From: Zasmidium citrigriseum
Taxonomy: Eukaryota > Ascomycota > Dothideomycetes > Mycosphaerellales > Mycosphaerellaceae
Assembly (NCBI GenBank): GCA_002786025.1
Contig: NHNW01000016.1
Location: 682,001 to 746,000 of the forward strand
Length of the DNA: 64,000 nt
Direction: 5' to 3'
A program made the position numbers and the translations under genes. This document shows, in pieces, positions 21,341-64,000 of the stretch (positions are counted from its first letter, which is position 1; each line of letters begins with the position of its first letter). A model generated the notes under the pieces. The model was not told the origin of the DNA. It saw nothing but the letters and a program-made list of their open reading frames with translations, and ran no database searches.

Positions 21341-24300
21341 TCTAGACCTAACTTTTAAGTTTAGGTTTAGGCTTAATTTATAGTTTCTAGTCTTCTAGTT
21401 TAGTTATTATACTCTTCTAGGTATACTCTATAATTTATATATATAAATTTTCTTTATATCTAGTTTCCTTTAAAAGATATTACTATTATAAGCTCGCCGT
21501 TCTTAAAGCTTACTTTAACGCTAAGGCTAAATCTAGAAGTAGTATAGCTTAAAGCCCTAACTACTAATATAAAGCCCTAACTACTAACGCTTACTAATTA
21601 TAGGCTACTATACCTAATTTCCTATAAAACTTTTATAGGAAATCGAATACTATAAACTTTCGTTATATACTCTTTATATAATATAAATTCTTTACTATTA
21701 CTAGTCTAGATACCTTATAGCTTAGCTATACTAACTCTTTAATTATATAAAAATACTCTATTACCTCCTAACCGTATATTAGAGAACCTCTAGTTAAAAG
21801 ATATAATATTTTCTTATAGCGTAGATATACTTCTATAGCTAATAGCGTATATATATATTATATTAGGCTTCTCTAGAGCTCCCCCTACCTTATATTAAGC
21901 TAGATCCTTAACGACTTCTAAATATAAAGAAGTCGTATCTACTACTACTTTTTAAGTCTTCGTCCTATACTATTCTAGCTCTACCTTTACCTATAATAGC
22001 GACTAGTCTTCTACTAACCCTACTATACTTTATATTTCTAAGCGAGGTAGACTTACTATATTTAGAGGCTACTATTACTATATAATAACTATAACCTTCT
22101 ATATCGAAGATTATATATAGCTTCCTACTATCTACCTTTAATACTACTACTAGTAGTAATACGTTATATTAAAGCGCTTTTTAATTAAACGACTTCTTTA
22201 TCCTTATATTCTAGAGCCTAGAGACCTTTTAACTATACTTTATTATACTAGTAGTATTAATATTACTATTAGAAGTATTCTAACTCTAATTTAACTATAA
22301 CTAGATAATTATAGGCTATATCTAGATTATCTATAATAGCTAGACTATACTATTTTCTAACTACCTTTAGTATCTAGTCTATTTACTTATTCCTCTAAGA
22401 ATACTTTAACTATACTTTACTTTCCTTAGCGCTTATTAGGCTATATACTATCCCCCTTACTAGAAAGTACTAAGCTATAGTAGCGCTTAGGTTTAATAAG
22501 AGGTATCTATTTAATATATCTTTTAGATTAATATATATTAAAGGTACTACTCGACGCTTTCCCTCTATTAAGGCCTTTCTAAAGTATTTATAGTCTTTAT
22601 AACCCCTAAGAATACTATTACTATTAACTAACGCCTTAATATATCTTAAGAACTATTATCTCTTAGAAATCTAGAAGGCGATCCTTCCGTATAGATACTT
22701 CGCGCTATTTATTAGCTTAAATAGGTATTAGGATAAGTAGTAAACGTCTTTCTAAGGTATAGATAAAAGGCTACTATTAAGGTTAGTCCTACTCTTAATA
22801 CCTTTACGCTTCTAGTAAAAGCCTCCTAGCTACTACTTTAGTCCTCTTTTTAGATAATCTAGCCCTAACTTAATAAAGGCCTAAAATAAAGGCTCTATAC
22901 TTAGGTCGTAATAGCTACCTTTAATACTATAGAGGTCTACTCTCTATCTTAACTTTAATAGAATAGCTAGAATTCTTATATTAGAGGCGATTATTAACTA
23001 CTTCTATATATATATACTATATATACTAAGATAGGCCTACCGCTATATAATAAGCTATAGGAGCCTTATACCCCTACTCTAGAAGGCTTATTAAATAAAG
23101 TACCTATACTAATCTAGCTAGCTATTCGTTACCTTATAGTATTTCGCTACTACCTACTACGACTTAAAGAACTACTTCGAAATATAGAGGCCCTTTAAGA
23201 CTCGATTAATTAGCTTACTATAATCTCTATTATATACTCGCTAGCTAGCCTACTAGAAGATACCTAGCTCTATTAAGACCTTATACTACTATAATCTATT
23301 ATATAAAGCGTTTAAGAATATATAAACTATTAGAGCTTTCCTCCTATTAATATATATATACTAGCTTAGATATTTAATCCTAAGCGGCTACTCGATTTAT
23401 TTAGTACTATACTTTAGTCTACTTTTTATAACTTAACTTAGTAGGGAAAGGCGCCTTTCTAGCTTATATAAACTATAGGGGAGATAGCCTAGCTTAAGAA
23501 TATAGGAATATTTAGTAATAAAATTAGTACTATAGGATAGCTAGAGGTTATACTAAGTAAGAGTAACTTTATATAGTAAAGGCTAGGTCTAGAAAGAGCG
23601 CTTAATTCTATATCCCTTCGCTAGTTACTCTACTATTAGTAATATAACGAGATTACGTTAAATATATATCTAAGTATATATTATATATATTTACCTATAA
23701 TTAAGCTTTATTATATAAAGATAGTTAAGTAGAGCGACTAATTTTATTTAGTCTTAGGAGAGGTAGTAGGTTACTATAGTAGAGTAGCTAATTTTATTTA
23801 GTCTTAGGATACGTAAAAGTATACTATAGTAGAGTAATTAATTTTATAGGTTTTTAGAGTATATAAATATTACTACTAAATATTAGCTAAGTATATCTAG
23901 TATTAATATATTAATAAGGCCGTCTTTTAACTATAAGCTCTAAGACTAGATAAAATTAGCCGCTATAGGGTAATATCCTAGTATAAAGCTAGAGACCGAG
24001 TAAAATTAGTCGCTAAGCTATACTTAGATCCTAATCCTCTACTAATCTAAATAGAAGTAGCTACTATACTATAGTACCTTTATATATACTTTATTCTAAT
24101 AAGAAATTTATTTAGGTTAGTATATTAATTATATTAAGAATACTTCTATAGCTACTAGGTACTTAAGTAAGATACTACTAGCTAATTACCTTCTATTACC
24201 TATCTTCTAAAGCGTTAAATCTCCTATTTCGAAATATCTTCTAAAATCCTTATTATTATTAGCGTATTTTATAAAGCGAGAGAATACTTTTCTAGCTAAG

Positions 24301-29149: not shown

Positions 29150-32100
29150 ACTAAGCCTAATCCTAAAAAGGATATAAACGCGGATAATAATAATAATAAC
29201 GCGCTAGGCGCTTCGAATAAAAACTATAATAATAATAATAGCGAAACGCCTAACTAAGAGCTTAATCGCCTTTAGTAAGAATACGCTACTCTATAGCGAG
29301 ACGTAGAAGCTAGTATCTTATAAGTAGGTATCGCGAAACTTAAGCGCGCTATAGAGTAACCTCTTACGAACCTAACTCTAGACCTAGATAAGTTAGACGA
29401 TAGAGATAATAATAATAATAACAACGACGATAATATAAGTTAGATACTACTATAACGATAGCGAGATAAGAGTCCTCTCCTCTATAGATACGAACTCTTA
29501 GCTATCTTATCCTTTATAGGAGAAGAGCTAATTACCTTTATAGGTAGAGCGCGTCTAAAGCTTAAGAAGCCTATATTCTATAAGGCTATATCTATTAAGA
29601 AAGCTAGACTATTCCTTTAAGATTTAGACCTAATCTTTAGCCTATTAGGACGAATATATAGTATAGATAAGGTAAAGATACTATATAGTATTATATACCT
29701 TATACGCGAAACGAGTAAGTATTAGTATATAGACTACGAGATTAAAGAGCTTAACTAAGGATACTTATACGCTAACTTTAAGATATAGTATCTTAACGTA
29801 GTTAGGGACCTAGTAAACTATATACTTACTATTACCCTAGAATACGAGTAATATTATTAATAATAGAATTAGGATATTAAATAATTCGCTTCTAAATTAA
29901 ATATCCTTAAGGATTAACTTAGAGACTACCTCGAGCTATAGAAGGTACGCTATCTTCTCGTAAAGCTTAACTCGAACCTTCGTAGTACTATTATTAAATA
30001 CTATAAGATTCTAAAGTAATAATACGAACTCGTTACGCTAGTAACCCGTATTAAAACTACTAATAAACTAATCTTAGGAAATAAGCGAGGTTATAAGAGT
30101 AATAATTATAAGAAGAAGTTAAGTAGCTATAGCGCTAATAGCGAAGGTTAAAAGCCTAAGCGCTATAAGTATAGTAATAGCGAAGCCTAATTAGAGAAGA
30201 AGAAAGATAAAATAAAGATAAAGGAGGAGTACCTTACTACTATTAAGTACTATAATTACTATAAGAAGAGATACTACTCGATATTATACCTTAAACCTAA
30301 AGACGAATTATAGTTAACCTATAGGATTAGCGATAGCGAAGTAGTAAAGAAGCTAGGAAAAGCTAAGGGCTAGAGTAAGAGTTATATCTAAGCCTAGATC
30401 CCCTTCTAGTTAACTCTTAGCCTATTTAACGCCTATAAGGCGAAGTTAACGCGCTAATTAGGAAAACGTTTATTAAATATATCCTCGATAATATAGTAGA
30501 TATTAACGTTATCCCTATATAATTCGCCCTTAAAGCGAAGCTACCTCGCTAGAGGTAGGCTAACCTTCTAAAAGTAGACTTCTTCTAAGGTAACTAGGGT
30601 TACTACTATAGAGTATATAGTATATATATACGCCTTATAGACTCTACGGGTATAGAACGTACTATAACTATAACCTTCTATACTTTCGATATAAAAGATA
30701 ATACGATTATTCTAGGAAGACTATAGCGGTTCTAGAATACTATAATAGTCGATAGTATAATAGATATATAGCGCTATAGAGATATATCTAAGGATTAAGC
30801 GATTTCCTTACGAGAGGTATAGGAATTCTTTAATAATATTAAAGATAAAGAACGAGTCTATATAGTAATAATTTATCTACTTATAGAAGCGAATAGTAAT
30901 AAGGAGCTACTAGAGGAGTTTAAGGAGTTCTAGGATCTCTTTAACTACGACGTATAGTTAGTACGTAAGGTCCCTATTAAATACGCTTATACGATTAATT
31001 TAGAGCTAGGTAAGAAGCCTCTATTTAAGCCTCTCTATTAATATTCCTAGGTAGAGCTAGAAGCTCTAAGGGAATATCTAGAGAAGGTAATAAAGAATAG
31101 GTAGATCTAGCGAAGCGTAAGCGAAGCGAGTACGCTAATCCTATTCGTTCCTAAGAAGAATAGAAAATTACGCCTCTACGTCGACTATTAAGGATTAAAC
31201 GAAATTACTATTAAGAATTATTACCTACTACTACTTATTAGTAAGACGCTAGATAGACTTATAGGTACTAAATAGTTTATAACCCTCGATCTTATAAACG
31301 CCTACTACTATATCCCTATTAAGAAGGGTAATAAGTAGAAGACGGCGTTTCGTATACGATATAGCTACTACGAGTATTTAGTTATACCTTTTAGGCTTAC
31401 TAATATACTAGCGACTTTTTAAGCCTATATTAATAGTACTCTCTTAGGCCTAATTAATACTATTTATATTATATATTTAGACGATATCCTTATATATAGT
31501 AAGATACGTAAAGAGTATATAAGATACGTACGAACTATTATATAGAGGCTACGTAAGTACGCTCTCTATATATAACGTTCGAAGTACTCGTTCTTCTAAA
31601 AATTAGTTAAGTTTCTTAGATTTATTATAACCCTAGGCGGCGTCTCGATAGATAAACGTAGAGTTAACGTAATCGAGGACTAGCTAATACTAAAGAGCTT
31701 TTACGAGATATAGTAGTTCCTTAGATTCGCTAACTTCTATTAGAGATTTATTTAATAGTACTTAAAGATTATTAGTCTATTAATAGGCCTTCTAAAAGGA
31801 TCGAAGAATAGTCGGAAGAGTAGCTCTCTTATATAGACTAATAGTAAAGACTAAGTATTTCGTAGTCTTAAGTAAAGGTTTACTAAGGCTTCTATCCTTT
31901 AATATTTTAATCCTAGTCTACTTCTACGAGTCGAAACTAACGTAAGTATATTCGCCCTAGAAGGTATACTCTCGTAGCTTTTTAAAGATTAATAGTATCC
32001 TATCGCCTACTAGTTAAGGAAAATATCCTCTACTAAATATAACTATAAGACTTATAACTAGGAGTTACTCGTAGTTATTAAAGCCTTTAAGTAGTAGAGA

Positions 32101-48000: not shown

Positions 48001-48100
48001 GTAGATATTTTTAGAGTTACCTACTATATAGATTTAGACCTTACTAAGGGAAGAGAAAGTTCTCTTCCCTATAGGGAAGGGAAGTAATATAGTATCCTAT
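45060..48100 (+). pseudogene. Gag-protease-like retroelement relic without RT
   Basis: About 1000 codons in one plus frame interrupted almost only by TAA/TAG. The middle reads IITRFEEGNYQKF, EYFSRDSITQTS and LFLKGLLVSITKKV, the pattern of the gag-like protein of a fungal Ty3-type family. A zinc-knuckle relic lies near 46265-46320 (YQLYSNKNYFTREY, from Cys-X2-Cys-X4-His-X4-Cys). A retropepsin-like segment lies near 47820-47900 (LGVGKKYYFRGLINKGSKIY, where LIN-x-GS stands for the LID-x-GS type active site). No reverse transcriptase follows; the frame ends in a GGAAGGG-rich stretch near 48060-48200. Strong purine bias on plus supports the strand. Either a truncated element or a non-autonomous gag-only one. 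Confidence 0.6.
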
Positions 48101-48210
48101 AGGAAGGGTAGGAAGGTAGAAAGTAATAGAAATCCCTTCTATCCCTTCCCTTCCTATAGGAAAGGCTAGAAGTATAGAAAGGCTAGAAAGGCTAGAAGCT
48201 ATACTAGTTA
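48060..48210. repeat. Low-complexity GGAAGG/CCTTCC tract with inverted repeat
   Basis: TTCCCTATAGGGAA near 48065 and the pair TCCTATAGGAA near 48096 and 48168 form short inverted repeats in a GGGAAGGGAAG background, followed by three GGCTAGAA units at about 48173-48198. Confidence 0.6.
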
Positions 48211-48314
48211 CTATACTAGTTAAAGGCTATAGAAACGACGTAAATTAAACGATTAACGATCTTAAACGATTAACGATCTTAAACGATTTAAGTACTACTA
48301 TTTACTATATATAT

Positions 48315-49000
48315 AAACCTAATAACCTCGCCTTCTACTAATAAAAGGACCTAGTAGCCTAATATAGTAGAGAGTAGAGCCTTAGAAGGGCGCGTAGCTA
48401 CTCTAGTACTAGTATCGCTATATAGGTAGTAGTTCTAGGCTAAGTAAGTATAAACCCCTATAAGCTTTACGCCTAACTATAGATAAGGGCGAGGAGAGAA
48501 AGAAGGGTCGTATCCGAAAGAAGCTCTATAAGTACTATCTTTTTACGCTCTCTTTAGCCTTATCTATCCTTTTTAATATACTAACTAAGCTAAATATCTA
48601 TTATTAAACCTAATAATCTCGCCTTCTACTAATTAGAGCTAGCCTAACCTAGTAGTAAGGAGTCTCTAAGGGCGATATAGCTACTCTAGTACTAGTATCG
48701 CTATATAGGTAGTAGTTCTAGGCTAAGTAAGTATAAAGCCTAACGAGTTCTAACCTAATAAGGAAGATAGCGAGACTCTAGCTTATAACGACCTTTTTTT
48801 TTACTATTCTTAGCCTTATCTATCGTTTTAATATTCTCCTAACCTACTTAATACTTATTATTAAACCTAATTTACTCGCCTTTATCTAATAAGAGTCGCG
48901 AAGAGAAAGATACTATAGTATCCTTTTTTTTACTACTCTTAGCCTTATATAGTAGTTAGATATACTCTATATCTTTTTATAACGTTAATAGACTTACGTT
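48315..49000. repeat. Three-unit tandem repeat (about 290 and 258 bp)
   Basis: AAACCTAAT..CTCGCC starts units at 48315, 48605 and 48863. Units 1 and 2 also share CTACTCTAGTACTAGTATCGC and GTAGTAGTTCTAGGCTAAG; all share TTTTTTAC..TC..TAGCCTTAT near their ends. Located just outside the hAT coding relic, this could be subterminal repeats of that transposon. Confidence 0.65.
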
Positions 49001-49489
49001 TTGTTAAGTAATAATCGTTTAGTAATTAGATAAGTTTTCGTACTAGTTACTATACTAGTCGTTATACTAGTCTACTATAAAGTACTTTTTTATAGCCTAT
49101 AAGCTTCTAGTTAAGAAGACTATACTTAAAGGTAATAGAAAGGTTAGATCGACGTATTATAGTAATAGCCTCGCTAAAGATCTAGTAGTTAATTAAGAGG
49201 AAGGCGCTAAACTTCTCGAAATAATCTTACTTAAATAGGGGAAAATCCCTTTAAAGGTTATATAGATAGTTAGATTAACGTATTATAGTAATAGCCTCGC
49301 TAAAGATCTAGCGGTTAATCTAGCGGTTAATTAAGAGGACTTTAAAGGATATATAGATTAGGCCGTCCGCCTAACCTACGTCTAATAGGCTATTTAACGG
49401 GTCGCTTTTTAAGAGTCCTTAATAATAGTCTATTTAGCGGTAGATTAGACTATACCTAGGGGATTTACTACGCTTCGTATAACTAGCTT

Positions 49490-52400
49490 TTAAACTCCTT
49501 CTAAGCCTTCTCTTCGTCGTCGTTAAAGAGTAGATTATTACTAAGGAGGCTTATAGACTTAGCCTTAAGCTCGCGCTAATCGTTATTAAGGGTAGTACGA
49601 GCTATTATTAACGCTAAGAGGGAGGTACTAGTATAGTTATAGTTATAATAGTATTAATATCTAGCTATACTAAAAAGGCGCTTAATAGCTACTCTAGCTC
49701 TAAGTACCGCGAGAATATCTCGAGCTAATTAAGCTACCCGAGGAAACTTAGGTTTAATAGCCTTCTATTATTTAATTAGATCGCTACTATACGTTTAGAT
49801 AAGGTGCTTTTAATCTATAATTAATATTAGTAAAGATAGACTAGTACGCTAACTAGTACGCTAACTAGTATATACCTAAGCGCCTATACTTATCGAACTT
49901 ATCCTCTACTAATATCTCCTTATTATAAATAGCTTCGTCTTTATTAAATCTAAAGTTACTATCGACTTATTAAGGCTATATCGCTAGTAATAGTCTAGCG
50001 TAGAGGACAAAGTTAGAGTACTTCTTAATAAAGAGCGTCCTTATTAATAACTAGTATTTTAGTTCCTATAACCTATCTCCCTATATAGCTAATTTAAAGA
50101 AGGTATTCTTTCGTATAGGTATAAGTAACGTCGCGTACCTATATAAATAGCTAAGTATAGAGGCTATAGCGGAATAATACTTAATTAGCTTAGCCTTTAT
50201 AAGCTTAACTATATTAAGTAGGGCGTACTTCTACTAGTTCTACTTCCTACGTAGGTTTAACTTAGCTTTCTCGAGTTAAACGAAGAGGTTAGAGTAGTAT
50301 AGGTATATAAGGTATAGAGTTAGGCCTATTAACGAGCTTATTAATAACGTATAGTAAGTAAACGGCTACGCGAGGTAGAGGATTTCCTAGACTTAGAGTA
50401 ACTCGGTATTATTAACGTAGAGGTAATCCTAACCTTCCTAATATAGATACTAGTTAATAAAGTAGTATAGATTAATATACTAGATAAGTATATAGGTAGT
50501 AGAATCCTAGTAGGTTTTAATATCTTATACTAGTACTAATAGTCTTATTTATTAACGTTTCGTATTAAATGTATCCTAGCCGTAATACTTATCGCTAAAC
50601 GTTTCCTCTATACGTAGCGTATCTTCTTAGAGTTTTAGGAACTTCTTAAGTCGCTACGTACTAGCGAGAATCTATAAAATAGAGGCTCGGAGCTAGGCGA
50701 TATAAGCTTAACTAGTATAACTAGTATAGCTTAGAATTATACTTACCTTAGCGAGAATATATAGATATTTATATTCTTTATTAGTAGTCCTAGCGTCTTC
50801 GATAAATTACTTCTACTTCTTTTTATTATAGTTCCGTTTAAACTTATCGTTCGATAGACGAATCTTAAGAGTAGTATATAGATTACTAATAGCGAGCTAA
50901 ATAACGTATACGAGATATAGTACTAGTTACGGCTATTTCTTTAACTCCTCTTTAGTTAGTTCTAAGCCTATAATAGTTATAGTTAAGCTCTACTTATCTA
51001 GAGTCGTAACCTATACTACTAGTAGCGCTACCTAGCCGTCCCTAGTACTTATACTACTATTTAGGTAGGTATTATTAGTATACGCCTAAAGATAAGAGAG
51101 GCTATAGTAATATTAGATAGGAAATAGGGGTAGTAGGCTTTTTAAGCTTATATAGTAGTATAAAGCGTCTTATTATTTAAAGCGTTATTAGTCGTAAACG
51201 CTAAGATCCGCTCCTTTAGGTTAAAGTTTATTATTATCTAATCTATATATTAATAGAGGTTTACGCTAGTATACTACCCCTTAATCTTAGCGAAGGATAG
51301 GAGCTCCTTATAGTATATCTAGTCTTAATCGATCTAAAAGCCCTTAATACTAAGAAAGGCTAGTTAATAATTAGAGGTACTCTAGGCGTCGAGGGTAATA
51401 GCTACCTTCGAATCGATACTCTTAGGATAGTATAGTTTATTACGAATCTTCTTAATAATATTACTAGTAGTATCCTTAATCTAGTAGTAGACTATTAATA
51501 GTAATAGTATCTTTACGTCCTTATATAGGTACTTAAGGCTCCTCTATATATAGATATTCTTAAAAAACGTTACTAGTACGCTAGTACTAATATAAGCGTT
51601 TACCTAATAGATTCTAAAGTCGTAAGGGCTATTAGCTTCGAATCCGTCTTTATATACTATGTTTTTAGCTAGCTTCTACCTCTATAAATTATTAGCGTAC
51701 TAGTTAGCGTACTAGTTAGCGTACTAGTTAGCGTACCTAAACTCGAAATCCCTTATTAAGGTTAAGCTAGCGTTTCCTTCTACTTATAGTTAATACCTAT
51801 AAGTCCTTATAAGATTTCTTCTCTAGGTACTACTTTAATCTAGAGTTACTTATATTATTAATACTCGAGTACTTTAGTATAGTATAATAGACCTTATAGA
51901 TAACCTTAGGCTCGCTATTAGAGATCTATATACCCTCTTTAAATACTATCTATTCTATAGCCTTTTTCGTAGAGCCCTATTATATAAATTACTTCTTCGC
52001 TTTCTCTTCTCTAACTCGTAAACGTATTAGATTAGTATAGGGAGTATAACTATAGAAGTTAATAAACTACTTCTTATATTCTCGATTAAAGATATAGTAG
52101 TCCTCTCTCTTCGTAAATATTATAGCTACTCGGGTATTATCTTTATTAGTATTATATATAGGCGTACGCTAGCTATTAAGAGAGTTAGAGACTTATAAAT
52201 ACGTCCTTAACGAAGGACTATTATTTATAGGCTCTTATAACGAAGCTACTACTTAATATCGTAGAGAACGCTATAGTATATTTATTAGCGATATAGTAAA
52301 CGATAAATTATCGTTAGAGTCGAGGTAGATAGTAGAAAAGGCTTAGCTAGTACTACGAGTAGGTATAAGAGGGAGTATTAACTATAATATAGTATAGAAA
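49490..52400 (-). pseudogene. hAT-family transposase relic
   Basis: Transposase of a hAT cut-and-paste DNA transposon. The decisive part is the C-terminal dimerisation domain at 49520-49790 on minus: K** (two stops where hAT proteins have E-W-W), KFPRVA*LARDILAV, then RVAIKRLFSIAR, matching the family's ARDILAIP..VA.ER.FS. The tail LLSNNLLFNDDEEKA follows at about 49530. Upstream on minus (towards 52.4 kb) the frame stays coding-like with only TAA/TAG stops, for example TNLIRLRVREEKAKK near 52000, but the zinc finger and catalytic residues were not pinned down, so the 5' limit is approximate. Terminal inverted repeats and an 8-bp duplication were not found. Heavily RIPed and dead. Confidence 0.78.
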
Positions 52401-53099
52401 CGCGCTAGATAGTATACGTAAATAATAGTATAGGAAGAAGGAAGGAAATAGTTATAAATTTCCTACTAGAAGTTCTAGAAGCTATAGGAACGCTCCTACT
52501 ACTACTTTAATACTTAGTAGACTACCTACTAGAGCTACTCGCTACTCGCTACGCTAGCTATACTATACGAGCTCCTTATAATAAAGATTATTATATACTT
52601 AACTATAAAAAGATAAGCGAGCGTTAATAGTAAGATAGCGTTAAAGTATAGAGTAGATACCTCGTCTAATAATTTCGAAATCGTAGGTCGTTATTACTAA
52701 GCCTACTATATTAAGCCTAGTCTACTATAGCTAGCTTAACGCCTAACTCTTAGCTACCTATACTATTCGTACTTTAGAAATAAAGGCGATTATTCCTTAA
52801 TTAATCTAGCGTTAGGGTTATAACTTAAGGGTTACTCGATTATAGCTTAGAGTTAATAGAAAGACGGCGACGATAAGGTAAGAAGATAATTAATAAGCTT
52901 AAGATTAAGCCGTACTAGTCTATACTAGTTAGAGAAAATACTATTTTAATTTAAAGCGAATACCTTAGTATTTACGGCTACTATAGAGGAATATTATAAA
53001 ATAGTATTTTTCTAAGGCTTAGATATTTACTAATTTTAAAGTAAATAAACGCGTTCTATATAGAATCCTCTTAACCTTTATTAAGAAACTATATAATAG

Positions 53100-55730
53100 A
53101 AGTTAAGAATTAAGAGAATAAGTAAACGTAGTCTAAGATATTTATTTATAGTATCTAAAAGACGAGAGCTTATACCTACGATAGTTTATCGGAGTCTAAA
53201 GAGACCTAGCGCTTCTTAGGAAGCGCGTTAAGATCTACCTTATTATCCGCGAGGGCCTCGTAATACTTAAATAATACCCTCGCTTCCTTAGAATCCTTCG
53301 TAGTAATAAAGCTAAACCTCTCTAGATAATTATTATTATTAGGCTAGACCTTAGCTAGACTAGGTAGCGTAAACTTATCTTTATCCTTAGCCTCCTTATC
53401 CTCTCTAACGCTATACTAGTAGTATATTAACTACTAAGGGTACTAAGCCTCTACGTCCTATAATACTAAGTTACTCTATAACGATATCTTAGCCTTCGTA
53501 AAGACCTTATACGGCTAAGGTATTAGATAGCTAGTATTTATCTACTTAATAGATATATTATACGTATTCTACGAATACGTTAGCTATATTTATTAAGAGA
53601 GTAAAGGAATACTTATAATATTCTTAATTAAGATCTAATAAGTCTTACGGAAAGACTAATACTTAATAATAACCTTAACGATAAAGAGAAGTCCCTTAGG
53701 GTTAACTAGTATCGCTATATTATAGGTATTTAGCTAGCTATAGGCGCGAGGGCGGACGCGCTATAATTAGACGACTATATCGTAGAGGCGCTATTTCCGT
53801 ATTAAAGTCTAGCGTATACGTATCTAGTACCTACTAGGGCTACGTTTAAGACTATCTTCTATCTCGATAGTATACTACTTCTTATAAATAATACGATTAA
53901 CCTACTAGAAAAGGACTAGACTAGTCTCTATAAACTTATTAAACTCCTTACTATTCGGCTTCTCGATAGGATCCTACTATCCCTTATTATTAGGCTCTCT
54001 AAAGAGCTTATTATTATTATCGTTATTAGCCTAGTAGTCTTATAAGCTATATATTTCGTTAGCTTAAGTATAGATTAGTATAGACTAGTACGCTACTAAT
54101 AGAGACTTTAAACTTATAGCTTCTATCTAACGGCTAACTATCCTTCCTTCTTAACTATCTTAAGTATCTTACTATATATATAGTTAGCTATATTTAAGAC
54201 TATAATAGAATATACTACTACTAGAAATATACTCTTCCTTACTCTCTAGCTTATTATTAATATCTATTAGCTTAGAGTAGGTAGCCTACTAGGCTATACT
54301 ATATATACTATTAGTCTAGATCCTAACTAGTATAACTACTATACTACTAAAGGAGTCTTAATATATAGAATCTTCTAGTTATAAAACGCTTCTTTCTTAC
54401 TTAGCTTAGTAGCTTACTTAGTAGGGGATAGCGTAAGGTAGTCTTTATTCCTCTCGAGATAACGAATAGCTTTACGCTTACTCGTACGCGCTTTCTCGAT
54501 AGCCTTCTATCTTAGAGCTTAATTTATATAGCGCTTATTCTCTCTTATAGTATTTAGCTTCTTAGACTTCTCTTCTAGGGCCTTTCGCTACTATAGCGTA
54601 GTATAGAAAGGCGTCTTATCCTTAGATTTCGTACGCTTCTATAGCGTTACTAGCGAATTAGATCTCTATCGCTTTATTCTCGCTAGTAAGTTATACTCTA
54701 TAATAGCTTTTAGGTATATAGGTAGTAATATAATTAATATACGACTTATATATAAACGAGCGGCTAGATATTAGTATAAATAGTAAGAGGAGGCGTAGGA
54801 AAGGCGTATTATCGCCTAAACTCGCTAGCGTCGCTATATTAATATCGCTATTACTAGGTAATAGACCCCTAGTAACGATAATACCTCTTTAATAGTAATA
54901 TTAAGGTTATTAGTAATAAGGAAGAAGAAGACAATTAGAAGCGACGAGAAGGTACTAATATAGTATTAGAAAGCTTATAATTATAGGTAGTTAATATAGG
55001 AAGTAAGCTAGTAACTAACTAAAGGAATAACTTCCTTAGCTATTACGAGAACCTAAGCTAGTATATTAGAATATACTAATCTCCTTCGAAGGAGAAGGTA
55101 CGACTAACTCGGACGCTCGAAGTAAAGGCTTATAGCTAGCTCTATATATTAAGATAATACTAATCTCTATCGTAGCTAGGATAGGTAGGATATAGCCTAG
55201 GCTACCTAGATAGCTCTCTTACTAAATATAATAATCGAATCGACTATAATATAAGGAGGGGCTTCTTATTTCTCGTAGCTTAGTAAGTATTTAAAAGTCT
55301 AGCCTAAACGATTTAAAAACTAATAGCTATAGTAGTCGTAGTAGTTATACTAGTCTCTAGCCTTAGCTAGATTTTCCGCGCTAGCTTTAAGCTTAAACTA
55401 TATCTAAGTAGTACTAATTTCGTTATTAATTAGATTAGCTATATAATAGTTTAATAGGTATAGTATATAGTATATTAACTTCCGTATAGACCTAGCCGTA
55501 TTATTATAATAGAGCTCGTCGACGCGTCTTCTCTTTATATCCTTAGTATTAATCCCCTATACGGCTAGGTCTTTATTTAGTACTATACTAATACGATTAT
55601 AATATTTTCTTTAGGCCTAGCTATAGACTATACTTTCTCTACTATCTAAATACTACTACTAGTTCTATAACTAGGCGACGGTCCTATAATACTACTACTA
55701 AACCTATCCTTAGTAAGGAAAACGACTAAG
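53100..55730 (-). pseudogene. Unidentified protein gene relic, divergent from the H3-like gene
   Basis: The minus strand gives long stretches free of stops other than TAA/TAG. Near 55350-55560 it reads INTKDIKRRRVDELYYNN and FKLKASAENLAKARD; near 53150-53420 it reads EDKEAKDKDKFTLPSLAKV and DSKEARVLFKYYEALADNK. The protein is hydrophilic and rich in Lys and Glu. It may be one gene or two; frame changes between the parts were not resolved. Its probable start near 55.7 kb faces the start of the plus-strand H3-like gene at 55.77 kb, so the two would share a promoter. I do not recognise the family. Confidence 0.4.
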
Positions 55731-55766
55731 TCGAAGGCTAAATATACGCTAACGAAAGGTTAATAT

Positions 55767-56153
55767 ATAGTACCAATTTAGAGTAATACTCTAAAACGTA
55801 GGAGGCGATTTAGAAAGCTACTTAAGAATAAGATATCGTTAACTAGCCGTAAAATAGTACTAGGTAGAGTAGTAACTAGCTATTATAAATAGAAGCTAGG
55901 TATAGTTACTCTACGTAAGATTCGATAGATATAGAAGACTTATAATCTTATTATCCCTCGGATATTATTTATACGACTCGTTCGCGAGGTAGCTACTATA
56001 TTTAAGTATAACCTACGTTTCTAGTCTAATATATTATTCGCTCTATAAGAAGCCGCTAAAGTATATCTCGTCTATAAGTTTAAATATAGTCTTAATCTTA
56101 TATTATATATAAAAAGAGTAACGATTTAGTAAAGAGATATAAGGCTTATATAA
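55767..56153 (+). pseudogene. Histone H3-like (H3 or CENP-A type) gene relic
   Basis: One plus frame, with TAA/TAG taken as Gln, aligns gap-free with histone H3 from about residue 42 to 127. From 55893: VTLRKIR (H3 VALREIR), FIRLVREVA (F.RLVREIA), FKYNLRF*S (FKTDLRFQS), AL*EAAKVYLV (ALQEA.EAYLV) and, to 56150, YIKRVTI**RDIRL (HAKRVTI..KDIQL). By my count 38 of about 86 positions are identical. Most others tested are single RIP steps: Glu to Lys, Pro to Leu, Gln to stop, His-Ala (CATGCA) to Tyr-Ile (TATATA). The N-terminal tail is basic (KRRRRFRK, SRK) as in histones but does not match the H3 tail; ATA at 55767 may be the lost ATG. LRF rather than LRW favours H3 over CENP-A. After 56153 the frame continues without TGA, so the true stop is uncertain. 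Confidence 0.85.
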
Positions 56154-58260
56154 ATACTATAAGATAAGATTCTTCTAATAGATAAGTTACTAGTATAGAC
56201 GTAAGTAGATAAGTCTACTATATACTTAAGATCTTATTTCCCTAGACTAGTATAACTAGTACGAACTTCTTCCTCTATAAGGGCCTAGCTCTAGTATTAA
56301 TAATACCTCTACTAATAGACTCTTCTCTAATAATATACGTCGATAGTATATTTACGGTATAGCGAAGACTAGCTATCTCTTTAATATTCGTTACCTAGAT
56401 ATTCGCTTACTACGAAGTCTCTCTTTACTTCTTACTAAGTCTATCTTTAATATTATTAGCCTACTAGATCGCTTTCTCGATATATATTCGAAGATCTATA
56501 TACTAGACTAGCTTAGAATATACTACTACTAATATTAACGGATTCCTTAAGCTAAGTTACGAGAAGACGACCTCTTTTCTTATCGCCTATTACTACGATC
56601 CCTATTCGTATATAAAGAGCTAGTATAAGGACTATCTTAGAATATACTACTACTAGAGGCTACTATTAACGTCTATACCTATATATTAATTAAATCCTCT
56701 TACTTAGGCTCTTATATCTATACTATTACTATAGATATACTACGAGCTCTAGTTCTAACTATACTACCTACCTACTTACTAAAGGACTCTTTAATTATAT
56801 AATCTACTAGTTAAAAGCTTATACTTTTAGTAAGAGCTTCTTATATTATATCGCTAGGGACTTCTAATAGTATTAGCTTTTCGGCTTTAGACTATTATAA
56901 CTAGTACGCTTACTCTTATATACTTTAATTCTAGCCTTTATATTCTTAGATCGGCTTTACTATACCTTACTCGTATCTTCGCTTTAATAGTATTATATAG
57001 GAGTCTTCGATAAGGGAAGAAGTAAGCTATAGCGGGCTAAGGTACTATATAATAGTATTACTAGTAAACTTAATCCTCTTCCCTTTACTTATACCTCTAC
57101 TAGCGACTTTAGGTTAGCTCTTTAATATACGTATAGTAGTAGCTAGTATATTATTAATATATTCTTACCTATAGTTTAGATATACTAATAATAGCGATAG
57201 GTCGCTACTACTATATATTACTATACTAACTATTATAAGCTCGCTATTAATATTTTAATAGTAAGCTCGCCTTTCGTCTAAACCCCTTATATATATAATT
57301 CGAAACTACTATTATTACTATTATTAATAAGTAAATCGAAGCGATATTATAGCGCGTACTAAGTAGACTACGAGAAAGGCGCTAAGTAAGAGGCTTACTA
57401 GCGCCTATAACCGAGTATAGTAGTAGAAGCGAAAGAGTAGCTCTACTACTACTAGAGCTCTTAGAGTAGCCTATAGTAGTATTATAGGCTACTATATTAG
57501 TCGCTTTAGAGAGAAGATTCGCCTTAGAAAGGCTAAGAAAGTAATAGTAGCTAGTAAGGCGCGTATATTAAGACTATACTAGTCCTTATACTAGTTAGGA
57601 TAGAGCTAATACTTTATAAGTAAGGCGAGACGTAAGGTTACGGATATATACGCTCTACTAGATAGCGATATACGCCTAGGTCGCTTCTTCTTAATCCCTT
57701 AGTTAGTATTCTATCGCGTAGTTTAAGAGCTTATCGCTACTAAGAAGAGTAGCCTATATATCTTATAGGACGCCTCTATCCTCCTTTAGAGTATTATAGA
57801 GGGCTTTAGCGTATAATACTTTAATAGTATATCTACTTTTAATCCGACTTTAACTATCTATTTACTAATAAGCTATAGTAGCGGCCTATAGTATAATCTA
57901 CTATATTAGCCTAAAGAAGGTATACTCTAGTACCTTAATCTAGCGTAATACTATAATAGCTAAGAATATAAAGAAGCTTATAGCGAAGGGCTTAGAGCTA
58001 TCGATTCCTAATAAGTACTATTAGCTATCTCTATATAATATAATAAGAGTAGAGTTCTTAGGTAGTAGTAGGAAGTCTATAAAAAGTAAGAGTAAGGCGA
58101 TTATTATAAAGCGGAAGCTAGTCGTCGATAATAATAATAATAATAAGAATATTAATAATAAGTAGATAGTTCTTTAGCGCTATACCTTCTTTACTTTAAT
58201 CGAGATACCTAGTACTTACCTATATACTAATAGCTAAATAAATTAACCTTTTAGTACTTA
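56154..58260 (+). pseudogene. Unidentified coding-like relic with an acidic C-terminal patch
   Basis: Plus-strand frames with only TAA/TAG stops continue after the H3-like fold. The clearest is about 57300-57910: RVLSRLRERR, RVALLLLELLE, ALERRFALERLRK, Leu/Arg-rich and likely helical. Near 58110-58160 a basic KRKLVV is followed by NNNNNKNINNK, which before RIP would have been an Asp/Glu run. Whether this is a separate gene or the continuation of the H3-like frame is undecidable by eye, because RIPed DNA reads through in several frames. Confidence 0.3.
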
Positions 58261-58404
58261 TATTTAAGATCTTTCTAGCTCTACTTTATAATTTTAGCCT
58301 ATCTATATACTATACTAGTCGCTATACTAGTCTTTTCTATAATTTCCCTTTCCCTTTTCCTTTCTAGTATCTATAATTTCTAGCTAGACTATATATTATT
58401 TTAT

Positions 58405-61400
58405 TCTAGACCTAACTTTTGGGTTTGGGTTTAGGCTTAATTTATAGTTTCTAGTCTTCTAGTTTAGTTATTATACTCTTCTAGGTATACTCTACAATTT
58501 ATATACACAAATTTTCTTTATATCTAGTTTCCTTTAAAAGATATTACTATCGCAAGCTCGCCGTTCTTAAAGCTTACTTCGACGCTAAGGCCGAATCTAG
58601 AAGCGGTGCGGCTTAAAGCCCTAACTGCTAACGCAAAGCCCTAACCGCTAACGCTTACTAATTATAGGCTACTACACCTAATTTCCCGTAAAACTTTTAC
58701 GGGAAATCGAATGCTATAAACTTTCGTCGTATACTCTTTATACAATACAAATTCTTTACTATCGCTAGTCTAGATGCCTTATAGCTTAGCTATACTAACT
58801 CTTTAATCGCGTAAAGATACCCTGTCGCCTCCTAACTGTATATTAGAGAACCTCTAGTCGAAAGACGCGACGTTTTCTTACGGCGTAGACATACTTCTAT
58901 AGCTAATAGCGTATACATATATTACGTTAGGCTTCTCTAGAGCTCCCCCTACCTTATATTAAGCTAGATCCTTAACGACTCCTAAATATAAAGAAGTCGT
59001 ATCCGCTACTACTTTTTAAGTCTTCGTCCTATACTATTCTAGCTCTACCTTTACCTACGATAGCGACTAGTCTTCTACTAACCCCGCTATACTTTATATT
59101 CCTAAGCGAGGTAGACTTACTATATTCGGAGGCTACTATTACTATATAACAACTACGACCTTCTATATCGAAGATTGTATATAGCTTCCTACTATCTACC
59201 CTTAACACCGCTACTAGCGGTAATGCGTTATATTAAAGCGCTTTTCGATCGAACGACTTCTTTATCCTTACATTCTAGGGCCTAGAGACCTTTTAACCGT
59301 ACTTTATTGTACTAGTAGCGTCGACATCGCTATTAGAAGTATTCTAACTCCGATTTAACCGTAACTAGATAATCGTAGGCTATATCTAGATTGTCTATAA
59401 TAGCTAGACCGCACCGTTTTCCGACCACCCTTAGTATCTAGTCTATTTACTTATTCCTCTAAGAATACTTCAACTATACTTCGCTTTCCTTAGCGCTTGT
59501 TAGGCTATATACTATCCCCCTTACCGGAAAGTACTAAGCTATAGTAGCGCTTAGGTTTAATAAGAGGCATCTATTTAATACACCTTTTGGATCGACGTAT
59601 ATCGAAGGCACCGCTCGACGCTTTCCCTCTATTAAGGCCTTTCTAAAGCGTTCGCGGTCTTTACAACCCCCGAGAATACTATTACTATTAACCGACGCCC
59701 CGATATATCTTAAGAACTATTGTCTCTTAGAAATCTAGGAGGCGATCCTTCCGTATAGATGCTTCGCGCTATTTGTTAGCTTAAACGGGTATTAGGACGA
59801 GTAGCAAACGTCTTTCTAAGGCGTGGACGAGAGGCTACTATCGAGGTTAGTCCTACTCTCGATGCCTTTACGCTTCTAGTAAAAGCCTCCTAGCTACTAC
59901 TTTAGTCCTCTTTTCGGACAATCTAGCCCTAACTCGACGAAGGCCTAAAATAAAGGCTCTACGCTTAGGTCGTAATAGCTACCTTTAACGCTATAGAGGT
60001 CTACTCTCTACCTTAACTTTAACGGAATAGCTAGAATTCTTACGTTAGAGGCGATTGTTAACTACCTCTATATATATATACTATACGTACTAAGATAGGC
60101 CTACCGCTACATAATAAGCCGTAGGAGCCTTATACCCCTACTCTAGAAGGCCTACTAAATAAAGTGCCTACACTAATCTAGCTAGCCGTTCGTTACCTTA
60201 CGGTACTTCGCTACTACCTACTACGACCTAGAGAACTACTTCGAAATATAGAGGCCCTTTAAGACTCGATTAATTAGCTTACTATAATCTCTATCGTATA
60301 CTCGCTAGCTAGCCTACTAGAAGATACCCGGCTCCGCTAAGACCTTATACTACTACGATCTGTTACATAAAGCGTTTAAGAATATACGAACTACTAGAGC
60401 TTTCCTCCTATTAATATATATATACTAGCTTAGATATTTAATCCTAAGCGGCTACTCGATTTATTCGGCACCGCACTTTAGTCTACTCTTCGTAACTTAA
60501 CTTAGTAGGGAAAGGCGCCTTTCCGGCTTATATAAACTATAGGGGAGATAGCCTAGCTTAAGAATGTAGGAATGTTTAGTAATAAAATTAGTGCCGTAGG
60601 ACAGCTAGAGGTTATACTAAGTAAGAGTAACTTTATGTAGTAAAGGCTAGGTCTAGAAAGAGCGCTCGATTCTATATCCCTTCGCTAGTTACTCTACTAT
60701 TAGTAATATAACGAGATTGCGTTAAACATATATCCGAGTATATATTATATATATTTACCTATAATTAAGCTTTGTTACGCAAAGATAGTTAAGTAGAGCG
60801 ACTAATTTTATTCGGTCTCGGGAGAGGTAGTAGGTTACTATAGTAGAGCGGCCGATTTTATTCGGTCTTAGGACACGTAAAAGCATACTATAGTAGAGCA
60901 ATTAATTTTATAGGTTTTTAGAGTATATAAATATTACTACCGTATATCGGCTAAGTATGTCTAGTAGTAACATATCGATAAGGCTATCTTTTAACTATAA
61001 GCCCTAAGACCGGATAAAATTAGCCGCTATAGGGTAATATCCTAGTACAAAGCTAGAGACCGAGTAAAATCGGTCGCTAAGCCGTACTTAGATCCTAATC
61101 CCCTACTAATCCGAATAGAAGCGGCCGCTATACTATAGTACCTTTATATATACTTTATTCTAATAAGAAATTTATTTAGGTTAGTATATCGATTATATTA
61201 AGAACACTTCTATAGCTACTAGGCACTTAAGTAAGACACTACTAGCTAATTACCTTCTATTACCCGTCTTCTAAAGCGTCGAACCTCCTATTTCGAAATA
61301 TCTTCTAAAATCCTTATTATCGTTAGCGTATCTTATAAAGCGAGAGGATACTTTTCTAGCTAGGCCTTAGGCGTCGGTCGACCCCTAAGGTAAGCGTAGC

Positions 61401-62571
61401 GTAGGTAGCCTTCCCTTACGGTACCTTTTAGATACTCTACCGATCCTAGGTAAGGCTTATTATCTAAGTAGACTACTATCTACGATCTCTATCTCCTATT
61501 TTTCGTCTTAGTAGTATCCGTAAGAGACTTCCTATTTAGCGGAACGCTTAGGAGGATCCGATACTCTACTAAATAGTACTACTGTAGGTAAGTTTAAAAT
61601 ACCGAACCCCCGAGGTACCGCTCTAGAGGCGATATAAATCCCGGCATATTATAGATCTAGCTAGTATACTAGGCTAGCTTCCGGAACCCTTTCTTATGAA
61701 AGTTTAATCGAGTATCGTCGGAAGGAGGTATAGTTTAATCTAAGTCGCCGAAGAACCGGCTTATAAGCGTACCGGCGTTACGCTAAATCTAGGTGCTACG
61801 ATCTTTTCCGATAATAAATATATCTTTCCCGTAGAGTTTCCTAAGCGACTTATACGTAAAGTCTATCGTTCGCTCGTTTAGACTCCCTCGTTACTCTGGC
61901 AAGATATCGTCCTAAATAGTAAACCGAATATTATCTCGAAATTGTTAAAGTATAAGGGTAACTATCGTAATTAAGATGTAGTAATAAAGCTCTTTACTAC
62001 TATACTCTAGTATTAAGTATCGATACCTATAGATAGCTTCCTATCTCTTATTTATTTCTTCCGCCTTAGCATCGTTCTAAGAATACCGCGCGAGTAGTCT
62101 ACTATAGTTCTAAAGTATTAATACCTAGTAAGATTCCAAGAACGTATAACTCGTCTAGTCGACTACCTTTGCTACCTAGTAAAAGCTATACTTTATTATC
62201 GTTTCCGAGAACCCTATACTAGTTACCATAATATTTCCTCGCGTGTCTAGTACCTACGTAGTCTATAGTTCCCGCTTACTCGGGAAATTAGTAGCTATTA
62301 AGAACGAGCGTAACATGTTAAGTACTATAAAGGCTATAAGTATCTATTAAAGCGCTAGATTCCTAGACGTAATCGCTAAAATTATCTCGAAGTACGAAGC
62401 TAGTCTATCTAGAACATTCTATATAAAGTAAAAGTATTTATGTAACGGCAAAAGCTAAAGCGGCGCGGTCGCTTCCCTCGTAGTTAGTACTACGCGTTCG
62501 TATAATTAAGATTCCTCCGCGTCTACTCGAGCTATAACTAGAAGGTCTAAGAAAGCGTTATATACTATACG
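58405..62571 (-). repeat. Repeat copy B (4.17 kb), lightly RIPed
   Basis: Full-length counterpart of 21341-25504 in the same orientation. It retains CA and TG (for example TACAATACAAATTC near 58740) and many CpG sites that are TA in copy A. Its left end, TTTTGGGTTTGGGTTTAGG, is a short G-rich run that reads CCTAAACCCAAACCC on minus. It overlaps the 3' part of the minus-strand gene described at 58405-64000. Confidence 0.88.
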
Positions 62572-64000
62572 GTACTCCTCTTGCGCACCGTATACTTTAG
62601 TAAACCGTCCTCGAGCGATACTCTAATATACTCTATAGCTAGTTATTCTCTATACGTCGCCAAGTACGTTATAGTCTAAACGAGCTCTTCTAGCCGCTAC
62701 TAAGGCCGTCGCTTGGCTACGACCCGCCGCGAAATCGTCTAGGCTACGATTTATGTACGGATATACTTTCGTTACATCGAGGGCCTATTTCGCTTAAGAA
62801 TAGTATTATACGTAGAGTAGTCCCTAAGGACCTATTATAGACGTTAGAGGCGGGGTAGCTATAATATTTCGAAGGTCGCGAAGTCTATAGTAGTTGTAAA
62901 AGTAGTAGTAGTTATTAACTCGTAGTTCCTAACCTATCGAGTTCTTAAACAGGTTCGATAGCGCCTTTCGTACGTAATAGGTACGGAAAAACGCTATATA
63001 GGCTTAAGGCGAGCTATAGAGTACTACCTCCTTCCTAATGTCGACGACTAAGGTCCTTATATAGCCTAAGTCGTACGTTCTGCGAATAAACTCCCTAAAG
63101 TCCTCTAAGCATCCTAGTAAGTTAGATTTCCGATAATTGTACTTATAGTTCTTTATAGTAAAGAAGATTTCTAGGTTCCGAAATTTTCGCGCTAGTCTAG
63201 CTACCTCCGGAGGGCCCTCTTAAAGCTTCTAAATACGTTTAAGGACCCGGTCCTAAAGCCTTAGGCATGTATACGGCGTTAGATAGTAGTCTAGATAAGT
63301 GCTCCTCGCGAACGACTTAGTCTACCTCTTACGCTTCTCTATAGTCGGAATACGAGCATTCGCCTTTACCGTATTATAACATAACGGTATTAAAGAGTCC
63401 TAGTTAATCGACATTGCCCCCCGAAGCGATAGTAGTAGGATCTCGTCTATCTAGAATCGTGTTTAGTCGTTAGTTAATAGTATCTCGGTATTCGGGATAT
63501 AGGGGAAGTAGACATATATCGAGGTATTAGACTCCTTAATCTTTCCGAATAGTATATACGTCGTACGCTTTAGATTAAGAAACCTATTACGATCCGACTC
63601 GAAGTTTCCATTAACGGATACGTCCTTAAGGTCGAGATACAGACTAGCCTCGTTCTGTTACGTCTTTAACGGGACTAGATAGTACGATATTCTAGTTCTA
63701 AATGCCCCGAACGAATTTGCCTACCTAAAGTATAAGTCTATATCGTAGGTAATAGTACTTATTACGTCCGAGAGATTCGTCTTATACGACTTGTAAACGT
63801 AGACATAGCGAGGCTCGCTTACGGACCTATTAGGTATAATCTCCTTTCCTTCTAACGTCTCTATAAGTACTCTCGGGTTTAACGCGCTAGTTATAACCTT
63901 ATCTTTCGATAAGAAGTCTCTTTTGTTTAGGATATAATAGCTTACCTCGGGTTTTACTAGCTTGTTAAGTCGATAGTACACCTTGTTACTATTAGTAAAG
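58405..64000 (-). pseudogene. Unidentified long minus-strand gene of the A/B repeat element, runs off the right edge
   Basis: The least mutated coding sequence in the block. A fully open 86-codon stretch survives at 63721-63981 (SKDKVITSALNPRVLIETL, NRSVSEPRYVYVYKSYKT). The minus strand then stays coding-like with rare TAA/TAG through the repeat boundary: GRFTKVYGAQEEYRIVYNAF spans the region just right of 62571, then FEIILAITSRNLAL and NEINKRQEAIYRYRY-like text follow to about 61850, and further coding-like text to about 58600 (LYLGVVKDLA, ALEKPNVIYVYA). The protein may exceed 1500 residues, so the 4.16-kb repeat is only the part of this element that copy A kept. I found no Walker box, reverse transcriptase or DDE signature and do not recognise it. 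Its 5' end is outside the window. Confidence 0.5.

Follow-up and report, generated by a model that had tools for sequence, protein, structure and literature searches.

A frame resembling histone H3 lies among transposon relics at positions 55767–56153 (plus strand) of the window, the 64,000-nt stretch of Zasmidium citrigriseum DNA analysed here, and raises the question of whether it is a host histone trapped among the relics, a host gene carried as a passenger, or a gene that belongs to a transposon. An earlier note on this DNA had described a gap-free match to H3 with about 38 identities and mismatches largely of RIP type. We read the frame through its stops to obtain the protein P0001; throughout the analysis, which worked on the element sequences as they stand, stop codons were either translated through or replaced by X. 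P0001 matches the Pfam Histone profile PF00125 over residues 37–127 (55.1 bits, E 1.1e-14, cut-off 26.4), and the closest solved structures are H3 chains, aligned without gaps over 93 residues at 72.9 bits (among the 60 PDB rows listed, all H3). The earlier note had also proposed running this profile after reversal of RIP; the match is significant even without such correction, since an uncorrected six-frame search of the genome finds 55875–56147 with 43.2 bits (E 1.4e-9), with five TAG and two TAA codons inside the match. We conclude that 55767–56153 encodes a stop-riddled histone H3 homologue, hereafter H3L, with a basic, non-canonical tail and a histone fold. Over 93 residues aligned with host H3, 38 are identical, just as had been estimated; 23 differences can be explained by RIP and 32 cannot, so that a predominance of RIP-type mismatches is not supported. 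The window H3L has no insertion in loop 1, and has F at position 84.

The sequence around H3L has the structure of a hAT element, which we call family A. The window copy starts at 48035 with a 25-bp terminal inverted repeat (TIR; 48035–48059, plus strand) that is identical at both ends in the copies on contigs C90, C76 and C13; the repeat, beginning TAGACCTTACTAAGGGAAGG, has 30 matches in the genome and none in a reversed control. The 8 bp to its left (TATAGATT, 48027–48034) are a candidate target-site duplication whose right partner is lost. The copy is cut at 58404, 71 bp short of the right end, and has thus lost the right TIR; no convincing match to the lost end was found in 58001–64000 or in the next 6 kb of the contig. 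The broken right end is adjoined, at 58407, by a sequence that starts TAGACCTAACTTTT and continues to GGTTTAGGCTTAATTTATA (or similar); this sequence recurs at 21343 and may be where another repeat ends.

Remnants of the hAT transposase occupy 49531–52423 on the minus strand, in several frames and with RIP stops, and show read-through matches in the same order to three further families, B, C and D; their exact coding limits are unsure, because the similarity lies partly in other frames too. The C-terminal dimerisation domain Dimer_Tnp_hAT (PF05699) is recognisable at 49600–49755 (minus strand), where its score of 20.7 bits (E 3.7e-4) falls just under the cut-off of 21.4; the same domain scores 25.1 bits in the sister copy on C133 and 23.2 bits at a family B locus (L010), and nine of the eleven genome matches to PF05699 fall in family A or B sequence. 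A Pfam scan of L010, the window and C133 found no DUF659, and none of the seven DUF659 matches in the genome is at an H3L locus; not all hATs carry this domain. With one frame of the broken transposase as query, no undamaged relative was found at E 0.001 among 6766 candidates in the protein collection. The earlier note had placed H3L next to a hAT transposase: the two are indeed within the same element, but the remnants (49.5–52.4 kb) are not adjacent to the gene and lie on the other strand.

H3L itself sits in a middle block (53083–58180) that differs between two subfamilies, A1 (the window copy) and A2 (C90 and C133). This block also contains a segment at 53167–53583 (minus strand) with protein-level similarity to family C (40.8% over 157 residues, 84 bits), and a second conserved island at 54435–55034. 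Both pieces lie in the stretch at 53.1–55.7 kb where a gene had been suggested; no Pfam match was found in the counterpart of that stretch in C133. The right subterminal part (58181–58404) is common to A1 and A2. In the C13 copy, there is an apparent tandem duplication of ~525 bp (~29640–30695) that matches window 52585–53110 and is single in the window.

Sister copies establish that the element was mobile. Full-length pairs of family A ends span 10,958 bp on C90 and 10,536 bp on C133. Perfect 8-bp target duplications flank two of the four copies checked, those on C133 (AGCGCGCT) and C76 (CGCCGCCT), and are absent from C90 and C13. In the C76 and C13 copies the two ends are ~28 kb apart, which we read as later insertions. 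The 8 bp at the right flank of the C90 copy (CTCGAAAT, C90:303755–303762) are the same as those at the left flank of a copy on C70 (C70:491298–491305), and differ from C90's own left flank; this cross-match reflects either two insertions that recombined or a join made in assembly. Together, the family shows TIRs, 8-bp target-site duplications in two sister copies, a transposase dimerisation domain, and an H3-like gene between the TIRs that was multiplied with them. We conclude that the window H3L is cargo of a hAT DNA transposon of ~10.5–11 kb, and that this hAT moved and multiplied together with its H3L. The diverged H3 inside a mobile element that the earlier note had proposed is thus supported by its recurrence between the same termini in sister copies.

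The whole element carries the marks of RIP. Its TA/AT index is 1.99 and its (CA+TG)/(AC+GT) index 0.01, compared with 0.45 and 1.35 in the GC-rich part, and 377 of the 387 transitions that separate the window copy from a sister copy over 48035–53000 have T or A in the window copy. We conclude that H3L was inactivated by RIP along with the entire hAT element. Across the AT-rich block as a whole (window 16000–58400), CpA and TpG are almost wholly absent, with a (CA+TG)/(AC+GT) of 0.0 that indicates unusually complete RIP.

A Pfam Histone search of the genome (44.4 Mb in 148 contigs, with the window on C57) returned 49 places, of which 47 were translated, one (C16:5–208) was classed by DNA match and one (C54:551665) was left out of translation. 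These sort into 36 H3L copies (12 of family A, ten of B, seven of C, four of D, one of E and two of F), two other RIPed H3-like copies on contig C1 (G), and 11 others that comprise host H3, an H3 variant, two CenH3 exons, H2A/H2B types and others. None of the 36 H3L copies is intact; all contain stops. A first division, into families A–E, came from blastn comparison of 20 loci (each at most 10 kb); translated sequence then served to assign family F and all other copies. The link to hATs was shown for families A–D: the single family E copy shows only H3L similarity to other families, and no transposase similarity, within its 10 kb, and the F loci were read over 1 kb only. The left end of family B was not found upstream of the copy at L013, and in family D ends of both kinds are present, but no copy has both. 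In families A and C, H3L is encoded on the strand opposite to the transposase region; in B and D both lie on the same strand. Among these four families, the transposase regions of A and C (153 bits) and of B and D (280 bits) are most alike, with 84–94 bits for the other pairs, and this pairing is the same as in the H3L tree.

Several other H3-like sequences came to light in this search. The two G copies (C1:305837–306037 and 310550–310747; L011) flank the single family E copy within 5 kb; they have L or I at position 103, a loop-1 insertion of ~5 residues, and frames that are seemingly interrupted as by introns. C69:454895–455158 (L002) is an open, very divergent H3-like frame of 97 residues, 57% identical to host H3 and without an evident tail; the host also has canonical H3 on C71 and CenH3 on C54. 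Two further very divergent H3-like frames, C134:48567–48788 (L033) and 56546–56764 (L032), lie 8 kb apart, have no stops within the match, and have W in the region of position 84.

To place H3L among histones, we compared it with protein relatives judged by sequence, the best 120 of 413 matches in one search and five from another. They include P0003, which comes from a 1.2-kb metagenome contig and is an undamaged protein of 164 residues; with P0003 as query, no H3L was found in viral contigs. The top protein match, P0002 from Rhododendron (164 bits), was rejected as kin, being two canonical H3 domains in tandem, as was P0122 from Didymella, named cse4, which groups with CenH3. P0126, being too broken, was excluded from the trees, and P0123 and P0124 entered the first build only.

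In the best maximum-likelihood tree of every build (n = 4), the H3Ls of families A–F and P0003 group in a single clade that is separate from both H3 and CenH3. Support for this clade is 98/96 in the first build, 99/96 in the second, 95/95 with more rows, and 89/94 after masking of residues that RIP could make from host H3 or CenH3. Host CenH3 groups with CenH3 of Baudoinia (98/89), in keeping with a place of the host near the Mycosphaerellales/Capnodiales within the Dothideomycetes. Both G copies fall outside the H3L clade, which argues against mere base-composition attraction. AU tests on unmasked data rejected the grouping of families A, C and E with H3 (p 0.036), of E with H3 (p 0.0019), of host CenH3 with B, D and F (p 0.026), and of B, D, F and P0003 with CenH3 (p 0.020). 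They did not reject B, D and F with CenH3 (p 0.087), host H3 as sister of all H3Ls (p 0.156), or a clade of A–F without P0003 (p 0.259), the last of which makes the placement of P0003 unsure. None of the four alternatives run after RIP masking was rejected (A/C/E with H3, 0.27; E with H3, 0.084; B/D/F with CenH3, 0.125; host H3 as sister, 0.134). Since alternatives survive these tests, and more of them after masking, support for a separate H3L lineage is good but not final.

Diagnostic residues point the same way. L103 is replaced by E (K where RIP acted) in all ten H3L copies tabled and by E in P0003, which is the only one of 124 scored relatives with E or K at this position, and D106 is lost in the same ten copies and in P0003. 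RIP cannot make these two changes, so they are not RIP products. A third change, C110 to L, is common to the H3Ls, yet frequent elsewhere (16 of 124 relatives, P0003 included). We take positions 103, 106 and 110 to lie near the H3–H3′ contact. The tail also departs from canonical H3: host H3 has the ARKS contexts around K9 and K27, whereas neither P0003 nor any of the nine H3L copies examined has them. Undoing RIP could yield one degenerate ARKS match in family B and one in D (two of the nine copies), and none in the window copy; family A tails carry ARKT or VRKT, close to ARKS. The trees and these shared residues support, without proving, that the H3Ls of the six families and P0003 are a separate H3 lineage.

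The earlier note had called the gene H3/CENP-A-like. Likeness to CENP-A does not fit the window copy, with its F84, its loop 1 free of insertion and its listed structural matches to H3, but is seen in the loop of three sister families. Families B, D and F have three to six extra residues in loop 1, and position 84 is W in B and, in D and F, a stop derivable from W, Q or R; P0003 combines a loop insertion with F84. Among the families searched (A, B, D and E), the best match of B is Schizosaccharomyces pombe Cnp1 (91.3 vs 86.2 bits for H3), as is that of D (77.9 vs 75.8), whereas the window copy (A) and E match H3 best. The likeness of B, D and F to CENP-A, Cnp1 and Cse4 thus lies in the longer loop 1, W84 in B and a helix like ALQEAAKAFLV; the differences are that the H3L clade stands outside CenH3 in trees and that it has L103E and has lost D106.

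RIP makes transitions only, and transversions are therefore immune to it. Between the window copy (A1) and C133 (A2), there are only four transversions in the 5047 bp of 48035–53082 and two in the 224 bp of 58181–58404, against 550 in 4986 bp of the middle block (53083–58180). From this distribution, the transposase half and the right end are common to A1 and A2, and the H3L-bearing block is what sets them apart; the simplest reading is that the block was exchanged by recombination between older elements. Within the block, transversions number three in the 273 bp of the H3L histone-fold core (55875–56147, plus strand) and 15 in the 600 bp of the island at 54435–55034, compared with 532 in the remaining 4113 bp (binomial depletion 4.5e-13 for the core and 1.1e-19 for the island). 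The three core transversions are split 1, 0 and 2 over codon positions 1, 2 and 3; position 3 is not favoured, and a recent exchange of that piece could therefore mimic selection. Between families, transversions are most frequent at position 3 in 18 of 20 pairs and least frequent at position 2 in all 20; the bias is significant (p < 0.05) in 12 pairs and not in the other eight, and the pairs are not independent. The depletion within H3L, together with the third-position preference between families, suggests that the H3L protein has probably been under selection. That H3L stayed beside related hAT transposases in families A–D while these diverged, with selection on the protein, is likewise supported but not proven.

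H3 genes in hAT elements have been described before, contrary to the premise of the earlier note that H3 is not normal hAT cargo. In Pyrenophora tritici-repentis, a hAT with an H3-like gene (also termed H3L) and a central ORF was reported in 2013 (PMC3538342), and its authors state there that the H3L belongs to neither H3 nor CenH3. That element, as its text describes it, is ~5.6 kb long, with a 2.3-kb form, and has 26 very similar, mostly intact copies; family A measures ~10.5–11 kb, there are several diverged families, and all H3L copies have stops, a distinction that we draw by description and not by sequence. In 2019, hATs with RIPed H3 copies were reported from Pseudocercospora fijiensis and five relatives (Cercospora/Pseudocercospora/Sphaerulina) and were read as capture of a host H3 transcript (PMC6710886). 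These resemble family A in having RIP-inactivated, intronless H3 copies in AT-rich blocks, 8-bp target-site duplications, and a full length of 9.5–9.9 kb by that account. Compared again by description, they are presented in the available text as one repeat family with DUF659 and one capture, whereas here DUF659 was not found, and there are several families and evidence for a separate H3L lineage and for block exchange. The terms CENP-A, CenH3 and centromer are absent from the main text of PMC6710886. A limited literature search (including PMC3538342, PMC6710886 and the review PMC8616336, within their available text) revealed no description of H3Ls that resemble CenH3, nor of hATs with several H3L families. 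Given the published Pyrenophora and P. fijiensis-group elements, the window element is a further case of known H3-carrying hATs; what is added are the results on the H3L lineage, selection and block exchange.

Taken as a whole, the data are in our judgement best explained, with good confidence, by H3L being a histone H3-like gene that belongs to hAT family A and was inactivated with it by RIP. The strongest competitor, which we consider unlikely, is the published reading for P. fijiensis (PMC6710886, in the text available), in which hATs took up retrocopies of host H3, once or several times, as inert passengers that RIP and drift then made to look distinct. The frame of host H3 is interrupted before G44 and the H3L frames run through that point unbroken, as in PMC6710886; family E aligns with canonical H3 over ~126 residues; and host H3 as sister of the H3Ls was not rejected (p 0.156; 0.134 masked). 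The same paper, as far as its available text goes, finds that the Pyrenophora hAT does not resemble the hATs of six other species in sequence, and interprets them as having arisen in separate events. However, RIP and drift of inert passengers fit poorly with 32 of 93 window residues that differ beyond RIP, with L103E and the loss of D106 common to the ten copies tabled and to the undamaged P0003, or with the codon-position bias of transversions, and E with H3 was rejected without masking (p 0.0019), though not with it (0.084).

Separate captures, with B, D and F taking CenH3 and A, C and E taking canonical H3, are very unlikely. They would account for the loop-1 insertions, the W or W/Q/R-derivable stop at position 84, the best matches of B and D to Cnp1 and of A (window) and E to H3, and a grouping of B, D and F with CenH3 that was not rejected (p 0.087; 0.125 masked). 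Yet the best tree of every build has a single H3L clade, host CenH3 with B, D and F (p 0.026) and B, D, F and P0003 with CenH3 (p 0.020) were rejected, and P0003 joins a loop insertion to F84. That an old host H3 paralogue was merely trapped among transposon relics and RIPed, the alternative given in the earlier note, has only its position in the AT-rich block in its favour and is refuted by copies of the same gene, in the same place and between the same termini, on other contigs, which leaves it next to no probability.

If H3L is the element's own gene, the intact protein would have been produced by the element itself. By associating with host H4 it could then have become part of nucleosomes, and the resulting chromatin would lack the canonical tail on which the host sets its marks. 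Chromatin altered in this way might help the element against silencing or aid its insertion. We offer this functional reading, in which nucleosomes of H3L and host H4 lacking the usual marked tail benefit the element, as a tentative possibility. A more far-reaching version, which we think improbable, would make H3L a histone dedicated to the transposon, in a third H3 lineage that a single hAT clade retained for its own use; nucleosomes of H3L with H4 would have an altered H3–H3′ interface (L103, D106, C110) and a tail without silencing marks that allows escape from heterochromatin; families with a CENP-A-like loop could bias kinetochore or centromere chromatin, and the H3L block would be exchanged by recombination.

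If the H3L lineage is real and selected, these hATs kept a nucleosome protein of their own, and not merely a housekeeping gene scooped up from the host. It would then become testable whether a mobile element determines its own chromatin state. A further question would be whether the 'captures' published for Pyrenophora and for the Cercospora group go back to a single old association, and not to two events as their authors read them.
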